Shown piece by piece: positions 41,801 to 50,180 of a DNA stretch of 64,000 bases. The stretch lies in assembly GCF_003171515.1 (NCBI RefSeq), contig NC_089397.1, positions 558,001 to 622,000 of the forward strand. Reading direction: 5' to 3'. The number at the start of each line of letters is the position of its first letter. The stretch's first letter is position 1. Source of the DNA: Pyrenophora tritici-repentis (taxonomy: Eukaryota; Ascomycota; Dothideomycetes; Pleosporales; Pleosporaceae). The notes beneath the pieces were generated by a model that saw nothing but the letters and a program-made list of their open reading frames with translations, searched no databases and was not told the DNA's origin. Position numbers and translations under genes: made by a program.

Positions 41801-41978
41801 TGAACGTTCCTTCCAACACCCCACTTTACCCCACCATCCCACCCCTTCCCTTCCCTCCCGCTCCTTTCCCTCTTCCCCGTTCCCATCTCTATCCCCATAT
41901 GCCTCGTTCCCTTTCTCAAATTATGCGCGCCTACAAATATATTTATCCTCAGGAATGTTTTATCGATTACCTAATACA
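38865..41978. other. Gene-poor interval upstream of the split tRNA
   Basis: About 3.1 kb. A minus frame at 39355-39732 encodes hydrophobic segments but has no ATG. Frames at 38941-39489 (+) and 41242-41520 (-) show no family motif. A C-rich/A-rich patch lies at about 40950-40995, and a C/T-rich stretch at about 41800-41890 precedes the tRNA. Confidence 0.4.
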
Positions 41979-42124
41979 GGGCGCTTGGGTACGTTTCCTC
42001 CTTCCCTCTCACCCTGCAACAACCATTCTAATAACCATCACAGTCTAGGGGTATGATTTTCGCTTCGCATAAACAAATGTGCGTAACTTGTGAAAGGTCG
42101 TGGGTTCAATTCCCACAGCGTCCA
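41979..42124 (+). tRNA. Split tRNA-Ala(CGC)-like gene with two intervening sequences
   Basis: Acceptor strand GGGCGCT (41979-41985) pairs with AGCGTCC (42117-42123), all 7 bp, with G3-U70, the alanine identity pair, and discriminator A (42124). The anticodon stem TTCGC/GTGAA, T arm GTGGG-TTCAATT-CCCAC and B box GGTTCAATTCC are canonical. The anticodon loop reads TT-CGC-A, then a 19-nt intron (about 42070-42088) containing GTGCG, which can pair with the anticodon as in normal tRNA introns. A second insert (41989-42043) splits the D stem/A box. Deleting it restores TGGTCTAGGGG, a good A box. T-runs at about 42130-42147 can serve as a Pol III terminator. The D arm resembles fungal tRNA-Pro. It may be functional or a disrupted copy. 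Confidence 0.72.
41989..42043 (+). other. 55-bp spliceosomal-intron-like insert inside the tRNA D arm
   Basis: Begins GTACGT, contains CTAATAAC 16-23 nt before the end, and ends CATCACAG. This is the same donor/branch/acceptor grammar as the protein-gene introns of this window (compare mL53 and SNU114 GTACGT donors). Removal is exact with respect to tRNA structure. Confidence 0.65.
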
Positions 42125-42817
42125 CAGTATATTTTTGCTGTTTTTTGCTCTATGCGTGATGGTCGTGGGTAGAGGGAGAAAGAGATCCACGTGGCCGTTA
42201 GACGTCTCGGGGTAAGCCTTTTTTTGTAGTGTAGTTGGTTGGACGATCGTCCCGAATTAGGAGGCTAACTGCGTGCTTACTTGCTGCTTTCGCTCGGGTT
42301 TTGTCCGAAATTGGCTGACCTGTTTGTGGGGTCAGATGTGAAAGCGATGCATGCAGGATGAATCAATAAACTGTTTTCTCGGGCCTGGGGCAGAAATCGT
42401 CGCAAGACAAAGTTTCTATTCCTGAACCAACCGTCTATCTGACCGGGCAGATCGATAAAAATGGCAAGTTACATTCGTATTGAATCACAGACAGTTCAAG
42501 CATCTTAAATCTAAAAGGGACAGTGAAATGAGCATAATACATAAATTGAGTATTCTTGCTATCTAACTCCCGCCTTATGAAGATGTGTATATATGTACAA
42601 AAAGCGAACCAAGGGTATAAAAAAAGGGTCAAAGCAAAAGTCGTGTCTAAAAAAGGTTGTTTGCGCCGCGACCGTCCGCCCCCCTCAAGTCCCAAAACTG
42701 AAACGAAACATCATCCAACACGAGTTCGCCAACCAGGAAGAACTCCGGCATCACCCCTGTTCATAGCCTTCGTATTATCCAGGTCCAGCGTTCGAGAACG
42801 CGTTTGGCTATTTTTGC
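42125..42817. other. Intergenic region between split tRNA and GH16 gene
   Basis: Contains the T-runs following the tRNA and the 3' flank of the glucanase gene. No gene supported. Confidence 0.4.
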
Positions 42818-47086: not shown

Positions 47087-50000
47087 ATGGACGACCTCTA
47101 CGACGAGTACGTATGCGCTTTCACTTTTGAAATATTACGCGACTGACTTTTGACAGGTTTGGTAACTTCATTGGCGAAGCAGAGTCGGATGAAGATGTCC
47201 AGAGTACCGGCGAGGCAGCCGACGCCTATGTCCTCGACGATGAGGAAGAGGCCGAGGCCGAGGCCAACGACCAGCAGCTTATGGAGGTAGATGAAGGGCC
47301 GTCGAATGCTGTAGTCCTTCATGAGGACAAGCAATACTACCCCTCCGCATCTGACGTATACGGTCATGATGTCGAGGTGCTGGTACAAGAGGAAGATATG
47401 CAATCGCTGGCGCAGCCCATTATTGCACCAGTAGTCCAGAGGAAGTTCACAATCCAGGAGACAGATCTGCCGCCCGTACACCACTCGAGGGAGCTTCTGA
47501 CCGATCTCATGAATTTTCCCGACCAGATACGGAACATTGCCATTGCTGGACATTTGCATCATGGAAAAACGGCATTCATGGACATGCTGGTCTTGGAGAC
47601 GCACGATATCCAGGATCGTCTGGATTACAAGAAGGGGAAGAAGCGGGAGGAACAGCTGCGCTACACAGACGTACACGTGCTCGAACGCGAACGAGGCCTT
47701 TCCATCAAGGCTGCCCCGATGAGCTTGGTGCTCCAGAACACGAAGCTAAAGTCGCATCTTTTCAATATCCTCGACACACCCGGACATGTGAACTTCGCGG
47801 ATGAAGTAGCGGCATCGTTGCGCTTGGTAGACGGAGTAGTACTCGTTGTGGACGTGGTCGAGGGCGTACAGGTCAACACAGAGCAGATTATCAAGCATGC
47901 GGTGCTGGAAGATCTTCCCATCACACTCGTAGTGAACAAGATGGACCGCTTGATTCTGGAGCTAAAGCTACCACCCAGCGACGCATACTTCAAGATCAAG
48001 CACGTAATCGAGGAGGTCAACACTGTCATCGAGAACACTATTCCAGGCCGCGGCGAGAGCAGACGAGTAAGCCCTGAAAAAGGCAACGTCGCATTCGCCT
48101 GCTCCAGCATGCGATGGTGTTTTACGATCCAGTCATTCGCTAAGATGTACTCCGATTTCTATCCCGGTCCCTCGAAGCTTCCAGGATTCGGTGTTCCGAT
48201 GAAGGGCTTGGATATCGAGAAATTCGCTATGCGACTCTGGGGTGACATTTTCTACAACCCAGGAAGCCGGAAGTTCAGTCGCAAGCGTCAGGAGGAAGGC
48301 TCACAACGATCTTTTGTACACTGGATTTTGGAGCCCGTCTACAAGATCTACTCGCATACTCTCAGTCAGAGTCCAGATGAGCTCAAGGACACGCTCGAGG
48401 CTTTGGGCATACGACTGAAGCCTTCTGAATACAAGACTGACGCAAAGGAGCTAATGCGTCTAGTATGCCAACAGTATTTTGGACCCTCCCTAGGATTCGT
48501 AGACATGATCACACAGCATATTCCATCACCAGAAGAGGGTGCGAAACGACTGCTGGAAAGACACTACACTGGACCTTTGGATACAAAGACCGCAGAGGCG
48601 ATGCAGAAGTGCGATCAGAACGGACCATTGGTTGTGCATGTAACGAAGCTCTTCAACGCAACAGACGCAAAGTCCTTTACTGCCCTAGGCCGAGTACTGA
48701 GTGGTACAGCGACTTCGCCCCAATCGGTGCGTGTACTAGGAGAAGGCTATACGATTGAGGATGAGGAAGACATGGTTATTGCGACTGTAACGGATACATG
48801 GATAGCCCAGTCGAGATATAACATTCCCGTTAGCGGTGTTCCGGCAGGTAACTGGGTGCTCCTAGGCGGCGTCGATAACTCGATAGTCAAGACGGCGACA
48901 ATTGTAGCTACCAAGCTCCCAGAAGACGAAGATGCCTACATATTCCGACCCATCCGACACTTTTTCGAATCCGTCTTCAAAGTCGCGGTCGAGCCAATTA
49001 ATCCCTCCGAACTACCCAAAATGCTTGACGGTCTTCGCAAGATCAACAAGTCATACCCGCTCATCACAACTAAAGTGGAGGAGTCAGGAGAGCACGTTGT
49101 TCTTGGTACTGGAGAGCTGTACATGGACTGCGTTCTGCATGACCTCCGACGGTTATACGCAGACATGGAGATCAAGGTTTCAGACCCGGTCACCCGGTTC
49201 TGCGAGACTGTCGTTGAGATGTCTGCCATCAAGTGCTATGCTCTTACGCCTAACAAGAAGAACAAGATCACCATGATTGCGGAGCCGCTAGATCCTGGAA
49301 TTGCAGAAGATATCGAGGCTGGCAAGGTGAACATCAAAGACCCTGTGCGTGTAGTGGCCAAGTTCTTCGAAGAGAACTACGGATATGATATGCTCGCATC
49401 GCGCAACATCTGGGCATTTGGACCGGACGATATGGGCCCGAATATCCTACAAAACGACACACTTCCTGCGGAAGTTGATGGCAAGACCCTCAGAACGGTG
49501 CGAGATACGCTTCGACAGGGTTTCAGCTGGGCTACTCGAGAGGGTCCGCTTTGCGAAGAGCCCATTCGCAACACCAAGTTCCGTATCACAGATGTCGAAC
49601 TGGCATCAGAAGCAATCTTCCGCGGAGGTGGTCAGATTATCCCCACGAGTCGTCGAGCCTGCTATTCAAGTTTCTTGATGGCGAGTCCTAGGCTGATGGA
49701 GCCGGTATACTCTTGCAGTATGGTCGGTCCTTCGGACACCAAGAGTAGTCTATACACTGTGCTTGCACGAAGGAGAGGTCATGTTCTGCAAGACGGTCCC
49801 ATCGCAGGCACACCACTTTACAATGTGCGTGGTCTTATTCCGGTCATTGATTCCTTCGGTTTCGAGACCGATCTTAGGGTACGTATAACCCCCACTTCTA
49901 GTCGCTACATGAAGCAGAAGCTAACTTTTCGCAGATTCATACACAAGGCCAAGTCTCCCTCTCCCTCGTCTTTGATCGTTGGTCCATCGTCCCCGGCGAC

Positions 50001-50180
50001 CCTCTCGATAAAGAGGTGACAACCCGACCGCTCGAACCCGCAACCGCACAACAGTTGGCACGCGACTTTGTCCTCAAGACTCGCAGGAGGAAGGGTCTCG
50101 CGGAGGATGTTACCATCAGCAAGTTCCTAGAACCTGAGCTGTTCCGTAGTTTAAAGGAAAGTGGGGTGTTGGATGGTTAG
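47087..50180 (+). CDS. SNU114: U5 snRNP GTPase Snu114 (EFTUD2 homologue)
   Basis: Three exons, 47087..47106 (20 nt), 47157..49878 and 49935..50180, give 995 aa. Snu114 is an EF-2-like GTPase of the U5 snRNP that regulates Brr2 and Prp8 during spliceosome activation and disassembly. The start MDDLYDEFGNFIGE is family-typical, followed by an acidic N-terminal extension. G1 is GHLHHGKT (residues 138-145), G3 DTPGH (213-217) and G4 NKMD (267-270). EF-2-like domains II-V follow, ending with DLRIHTQGQVSLSLVF and IVPGDPLDKEV. The final exon is required to complete domain V. Confidence 0.95.

Follow-up and report, generated by a model that had tools for sequence, protein, structure and literature searches.

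Putative spliceosomal introns in at least 19 nuclear tRNA genes of Pyrenophora tritici-repentis, including a tRNA-Ala(CGC) gene with a split A box

Canonical introns of fungal tRNA genes lie between positions 37 and 38, and they are removed by the Sen endonuclease and the Trl1 ligase. Spliceosomal introns are found in the U6 snRNA genes of some yeasts, which are transcribed by RNA polymerase III (Pol III). An engineered yeast pre-tRNA containing a pre-mRNA intron was reportedly spliced by the spliceosome, in work by Koehrer, Vogel and Domdey in EMBO J in 1990. Natural spliceosomal introns in tRNA genes were not reported in the open-licence literature that we searched, partly among the top-ranked matches only. 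According to the accessible parts of two papers (PMC4090602, PMC3978253), introns in the D, anticodon and T arms, with several in one tRNA, occur in Cyanidioschyzon merolae, nucleomorphs and Crenarchaeota, where they have a bulge-helix-bulge structure or a mechanism that is unknown. The string 'spliceosom' is absent from the accessible part of the first of these, a review of tRNA introns (PMC4090602), and the word tRNA is absent from the accessible main text of two papers on intron gain (PMC4457414, PMC9860276).

Here we describe a gene in a 64,000-nt stretch of P. tritici-repentis DNA (the window, meaning the whole stretch that was analysed). It is very probably a working tRNA-Ala(CGC) gene with two kinds of intron, one of at least 19 split tRNA genes, whose Pol III pre-tRNA would be processed first by the spliceosome and afterwards by the tRNA endonuclease. 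The gene has a 19-nt intron at 37/38, as canonical fungal genes do; the intron in its D arm, however, lies elsewhere, is longer and carries spliceosomal signals. Like the yeast U6 genes, it is a small RNA gene of Pol III type whose sequence is broken by a GT-AG intron that has a branch site. Unlike them, the genes concerned here are tRNA genes, belong to many isoacceptors and are split at several positions, and one of them has two spliceosomal-type introns plus a 37/38 intron. The 1990 yeast construct also placed an mRNA intron within a tRNA body, but the present genes are natural and are known from DNA. The positions of the introns, and the occurrence of several in one tRNA, resemble what the accessible parts of the two papers describe for C. 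merolae, nucleomorphs and Crenarchaeota (PMC4090602, PMC3978253), but no bulge-helix-bulge helix was found here beyond chance. Near-identical copies differ in the presence of the intron, as after recent gain, which recalls the introner-like elements and fungal intron gain treated in the accessible parts of two other papers (PMC4457414, PMC9860276); unlike introner-like elements, the introns lie in tRNA genes and, except for one weakly similar pair (Leu-UAA and Arg-CCG), are not copies of one another.

The window gene occupies 41979-42124 on the plus strand. Exon 1 (41979-41988, GGGCGCTTGG) supplies positions 1-10, that is, the acceptor strand, U8, G9 and G10. A 55-nt insert follows between positions 10 and 11 (41989-42043, GTACGT...CTAATAACCATCACAG), with the 5' splice site GTACGT, a CTAAT branch-point-like motif at 42028-42032, whose A is 12 nt from the intron end, and the 3' splice site CAG. 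Read directly from the window, the sequence 3' of the insert opens TCTAGGGG. Exon 2 (42044-42069) holds positions 11-37, with the D arm, the 5' strand of the anticodon stem and the anticodon CGC; TCTAGGGGTATGATTTTCGCTTCGCA is the sequence between the two inserts. The 19-nt intron, which sits at 37/38 as the D-arm intron does not, covers 42070-42088 (equivalent cut, 42071-42089). Exon 3 (42089-42124) provides positions 38-73, with the 3' strand of the anticodon stem, the T arm, the acceptor strand and A73 (42124), and the gene terminates in AGCGTCCA. The B box GGTTCAATTCC (42103-42113; C8:600103 in the B-box search) is uninterrupted in the DNA. A Pol III terminator-like T5 run at 42132-42136 is followed by a T6 run, and a TATA-like element, found in the upstream-element scan, lies on the same strand at 41938-41944, 41 nt 5' of the tRNA start. 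A terminator-like run and a B box, as expected of a functional tRNA-Ala gene, are thus present, and an uninterrupted A box is not. The 3' splice site and the start of exon 2 together form a near A box, CAGTCTAGGGG (42041-42051, two mismatches to TGGTCTAGGGG), which may have a functional role. Directly 5' of exon 1, CCTAATACAG (41970-41979) ends on tRNA base 1 and looks like a second branch site with a 3' splice site.

The unspliced locus gave no tRNA with ARAGORN and none with Rfam at the gathering threshold. When 41989-42043 was deleted, ARAGORN reported a tRNA-Ala(CGC) with a 19-nt anticodon-loop intron, and the cloverleaf, G3-U70, the Ala anticodon and A73 were all present. TGTGCG in the 19-nt intron is complementary to the anticodon region. 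These results bear out the original prediction, which had claimed that the gene folds as tRNA-Ala(CGC) only without these 55 nt, that its anticodon-loop intron is complementary to the anticodon and that its A box is split in the DNA; the split falls between positions 10 and 11.

To the base, the position of the cut cannot be set by ARAGORN or the fold alone, because 55 of 3006 deletions (40-70 nt) led to a tRNA-Ala(CGC) call; all of these began at +7 to +18 relative to the 5' end of the tRNA. We assigned the GT-AG cut because of the splice consensus and a paralogue on the minus strand at C9:518181, the sole other Ala-CGC gene found in the 40.9-Mb, 41-contig genome. The paralogue is split at the same site by a 56-nt insert (GTGAGT...CTAACAGAAATTCAG, with CTAAC and CAG) and also carries a 19-nt 37/38 intron. 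With the 37/38 intron set aside, the exons of the pair are identical, and the insert cores resemble each other no more than chance predicts (z 0.5). The exons and splice signals have therefore been retained, and the rest has drifted. The CTAAT..ACAG look-alike upstream of the window gene is not present at the paralogue. As an alternative fold that uses the insert, ARAGORN (introns up to 150 nt) offered only a poor tRNA-His(atg) on the unspliced paralogue, and this candidate was rejected; because of the same call, the deletion test on the paralogue (1642 of 3037 deletions called) was uninformative. An intact tRNA-Ala(CGC) gene was not found in the genome searches. A pattern of the Ala anticodon and T arm, built from general tRNA features, matched just the two Ala-AGC genes.

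Genome-wide, we identified 20 spliceosomal-type introns, distributed over 19 nuclear tRNA genes that serve ten amino acids. The genes occupy 18 places on nine contigs (C1, C2, C3, C4, C6, C7, C8, C9 and C10), and the introns lie in the D, anticodon or T arm. The 19 genes are a minimum and not a census, and stand beside 25 intact nuclear tRNA genes, with further intact ones uncounted; the Rfam tRNA scan of the genome scored 63 of 1172 candidates. Hits on the mitochondrial-looking contig C41, which is at least 180 kb long, retroelement and SINE-like copies, and B-box matches without a visible tRNA nearby (L072-L074, L076, L083, L084) were left out of the gene count. One search started from seeds free of splice signals (a 13-mer from the Pro/Ala D arm, and B boxes followed by T runs), and the surroundings of the matches were then read. 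Such seeds led to Pro-CGG (intron in the D loop, 20|21), Pro-UGG (one intron at 34|35 in the anticodon, another at 54|55 in the T loop, and a third of the 37/38 kind), Gln-CUG (11|12), Glu-CUC (8|9), Glu-UUC (13|14), Leu-CAA (15|16), and Lys-CUU, Leu-UAA and Arg-CCG, with one T-stem intron each. A second search required CTAAY ahead of a T arm, and eight of the 20 introns were recognised in this way: those of three Tyr-GUA genes (after position 20), of two Ser-AGA genes, Ser-GCU and Ser-UGA (13|14 in each), and of one Asp-GUC gene (30|31), whose B box was already in the B-box listing.

After intron removal, ARAGORN reported a tRNA in all 11 genes tested, both Ala genes included; the remaining eight genes (Tyr, Ser and Asp) gave a tRNA call after removal in the blind candidate-intron test described below. 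The Gln gene was called Lys-CTT and the Pro-UGG gene Pro-GGG. As we read these calls, the anticodons are displaced by the 37/38 intron, and both names were assigned by eye. Two loci stand apart. L075 (C3:2073381) is tRNA-like; its acceptor stem is plausible, its middle part is long and unexplained, and no CTAAY intron was seen by eye. L089 (C1:8051431, minus strand) holds Ser-GCU and Ser-AGA in tandem, both split at 13|14 and without a T4 run between them, which suggests a dicistronic pre-tRNA with two spliceosomal-type introns.

All 20 introns are 51-63 nt long. They begin with GT in every case and with GTRNG[TAC] in 19, the exception being Asp with GTTCGT. CTAAY occurs in all of them, its A lying 10-17 nt before the intron end; the 3' end is AG throughout, as YAG in 19 and AAG in one. 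The introns have, in other words, the 5' splice site, branch-site motif and 3' splice site of U2-type introns and the length of the host's predicted mRNA introns. For comparison, 24 mRNA-like introns were predicted from reading frames in the window and the other loci; their median length is 53.5 nt and their make-up is the same, within a set predicted from DNA alone and chosen by splice motifs and a 45-89 nt range. The mRNA-like intron grammar noted in the original prediction holds to the extent that these 24 predicted introns, whose motifs and length range were part of their selection, allow.

In a blind test, 670 GT..CTAAY..AG candidates were taken from both strands of about 344 kb, in which overlapping loci were entered more than once, and 54 removals gave a tRNA call spanning the junction. 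All 54 calls fell at the split genes described here, some of them as shifted cuts or with wrong anticodons. The test missed Lys-CUU and Pro-UGG, probably owing to length and to two introns. For eight introns (Glu-CUC, Gln-CUG, Lys-CUU, both Ser-AGA, Ser-GCU, Ser-UGA and the T loop of Pro-UGG), excision restored exactly a junction found in an intact related gene; two of these comparisons cross isoacceptors, with Ser-UGA set against Ser-AGA and Pro-UGG against Pro-CGG, which is itself split elsewhere. Around the eight junctions, identity extends 9-22 nt in the 5' direction and 19-86 nt in the 3' direction. Each cut is one of 1-4 equivalent positions, and GT-AG was among them every time. In the same comparison, the introns of Pro-CGG, Asp and Glu-UUC had no intact gene with an identical junction. 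The three Tyr genes have identical exons and unrelated intron cores (z -1.0 to 1.0, three pairs). Among all 190 pairs of the 20 tRNA-gene introns, one exceeded z 4, so that the set does not behave like introner-like elements. This pair comprises the T-stem introns of Leu-UAA (L062, C6:2126300) and Arg-CCG (L065, C9:865150), which are 70% identical (core z 4.1) and are perhaps a copied intron or the product of gene conversion.

Spliceosomal introns normally belong to Pol II transcripts, and each tRNA might lie within a longer, capped Pol II RNA whose intron ends happen to fall inside the tRNA. The CTAAT..ACAG string that ends at the first base of the window gene would suit this explanation. Against it stands the common layout of the split genes: in 18 of 19, a T5-T8 run begins 3-15 nt past the acceptor strand, and 16 of 19 have a TATA no more than 75 nt upstream, as do 17 of 25 intact genes. 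The one gene without the terminator run is the Ser-GCU that comes first in the tandem with split Ser-AGA. ATCAA occurs within 75 nt upstream of 13 of the 19 split and 20 of the 25 intact genes. Where both elements occur, TATA and ATCAA are 26-31 nt apart in 11/11 split genes and 26-28 nt apart in 12/12 intact genes. Their distance to the tRNA varies, unlike their mutual spacing (mostly 28 nt; 23 of 44 genes), and the two may together mark a Pol III promoter upstream of the gene, including the start site. In the window gene, TATA is present and ATCAA is not.

The absence of TTTT from all 20 tRNA-gene introns also speaks against Pol II transcripts; TTTT is present in 8 of the 24 predicted mRNA introns (Fisher p 0.005), and in 5 of the 17 that are up to 65 nt long. 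It fits Pol III only weakly, because a dinucleotide shuffle of the 20 introns gave the same absence with P 0.105 and because four of the 19 gene bodies contain TTTT outside the spliceosomal-type introns. Overall, we consider Pol II transcription very unlikely. With Pol III, an interrupted A box may be tolerated because upstream elements would set the choice of start site. Where the intron lies in the T stem, its 3' splice site (CAG or TAG) and the GTTCGA that follows recreate GGTTCGA, a B box, in the DNA, possibly as an effect of ascertainment, since the search used intact B boxes.

The isoacceptors for which no intact copy was found bear on a second alternative, that the genes are disrupted tRNA pseudogenes which were broken by short insertions and make no tRNA. 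An 18-nt tRNA-Tyr exon probe, blind to genes that are split within it or very divergent, matched three genes, every one of them split, at 0 mismatches and nothing at 1-2. At 3 mismatches it had 15 hits (18 in total) versus 25 for a reversed control pattern, and no tRNA was seen by eye around the seven of the 15 that were read. A 16-nt Leu-UAA probe, with the same blind spots, had one exact match, which is split in the T stem; it had nine hits at 2 mismatches, 10 in total versus 16 in the control, so there was no excess. Both of the Ala-CGC genes found are split. tRNA-Tyr(GUA) decodes both Tyr codons. Because all three Tyr genes and the sole Leu-UAA gene found are split, removal of the introns is probably essential. 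The cell would probably depend on this splicing for Tyr, Ala-CGC and Leu-UAA.

Two points favour pseudogenes: split Lys, Gln, Glu, Asp, Ser-AGA and Ser-GCU genes have intact sisters, and the accessible part of a review supposes that insertions in the D or T arm of single eukaryotic tRNA copies are pseudogenes (PMC4090602). They are outweighed by the split state of every Tyr, Ala-CGC and Leu-UAA gene found, by the Ala pair (outside the 37/38 intron) and the Tyr trio, whose exons are identical while their introns have diverged except at the splice signals, and by the terminators and upstream elements retained in most split genes. Moreover, insertions would not be expected all to have the form GT..CTAAY..AG and a length of 51-63 nt. 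Of the marks of a tRNA pseudogene, decayed exons and a lost terminator were not found, and redundancy applies to some isoacceptors. The original prediction had kept a pseudogene as one option for the window gene; the searches turned up no normal Ala(CGC) gene, an unrelated intron interrupts the same position in the one other copy found, and we regard this option as highly improbable.

We give a similarly slight chance to non-canonical introns cut by the tRNA splicing endonuclease, the other option kept in the original prediction, for which the D-arm, anticodon and T-arm introns and multi-intron tRNAs of C. merolae, nucleomorphs and Crenarchaeota set a precedent in the accessible parts of the sources (PMC4090602, PMC3978253). 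In a simplified test for a bulge-helix-bulge, a 4-bp central helix beside both cuts was seen at 3 of 20 introns (Ala-CGC copy 2, Leu-UAA and Arg-CCG; the window gene was negative), against a mean of 1.8 (range 0-6) with shuffled pairing. What is conserved is the set of spliceosomal signals, and the endonuclease has no need of these. An assembly or sequencing artefact, which the use of one assembly might suggest, has a minute probability, since precise and differing inserts occur at 18 places on nine contigs and an artefact would not be expected to bring splice signals.

A spliceosomal-type intron in a working tRNA gene, as originally proposed, is therefore the reading that the DNA supports, with 19 split genes that include all Tyr genes found. 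We propose that the window gene would be transcribed by Pol III via the upstream TATA-type element and the B box. The 55-nt D-stem intron would be taken out of the uncapped pre-tRNA by the major spliceosome, as its GTACGT, CTAAT branch site and CAG suggest. The 19-nt intron, to judge from its position and its pairing with the anticodon, would be left to the tRNA endonuclease and ligase that normally act on such introns. The spliceosomal step would probably precede the endonuclease step, since the endonuclease reads an L-shaped fold that, like the D arm, exists only once the D-stem intron is gone. More broadly, this is likely to be a lineage in which part of the essential tRNA supply has come to depend on the spliceosome, including all cytosolic Tyr, Ala-CGC and Leu-UAA tRNA (Tyr and Ala also on the endonuclease), in which many of the split genes have an A or B box that is interrupted in the DNA and spliceosomal introns of Pol III genes were gained recently, as near-identical copies that differ in intron presence indicate.

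If this is true, tRNA supply and codon decoding would rest on pre-mRNA splicing, probably entirely so for the Tyr codons. The spliceosome would have to handle Pol III transcripts that are short, uncapped and tightly folded, and the polymerase would have to initiate despite an interrupted internal promoter. Intact and split copies with identical junctions would offer a natural experiment on how a non-coding gene gains an intron. Standard tRNA annotation tools can miss such genes, as with the window gene, or misname them, as with the C9 copy.

Several other features of the window and the genome were observed. A dispersed tRNA-like repeat lies at 2438-2523 of the window; ARAGORN called it Arg(tct), and 19 nuclear hits share its Rfam score of 46.1 bits. 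The accessible part of an earlier paper describes a P. tritici-repentis SINE with tRNA-Ser(GCT) in 25 copies (PMC3538342). GGTTCGATTCCCAACA is a B-box look-alike that recurs genome-wide about 5500 bases apart, for example at C10:2352101, 2357601 and 2363101, resembling retroelement ends, as at repeats ending CCAACA. Matches to U6 above the Rfam cut-off lie at C2:1204189, C10:3490170 and C2:1204566, one of them just 66 nt long. A Tel2-type protein had a top match at 93% and its best named match in Pyrenophora seminiperda (89%). The gene for the U5 snRNP GTPase Snu114/EFTUD2 lies at 47281-50019 of the window, and its product shares 92% identity with a protein of Alternaria alternata; its location about 5 kb from the split tRNA gene is presumably due to chance.
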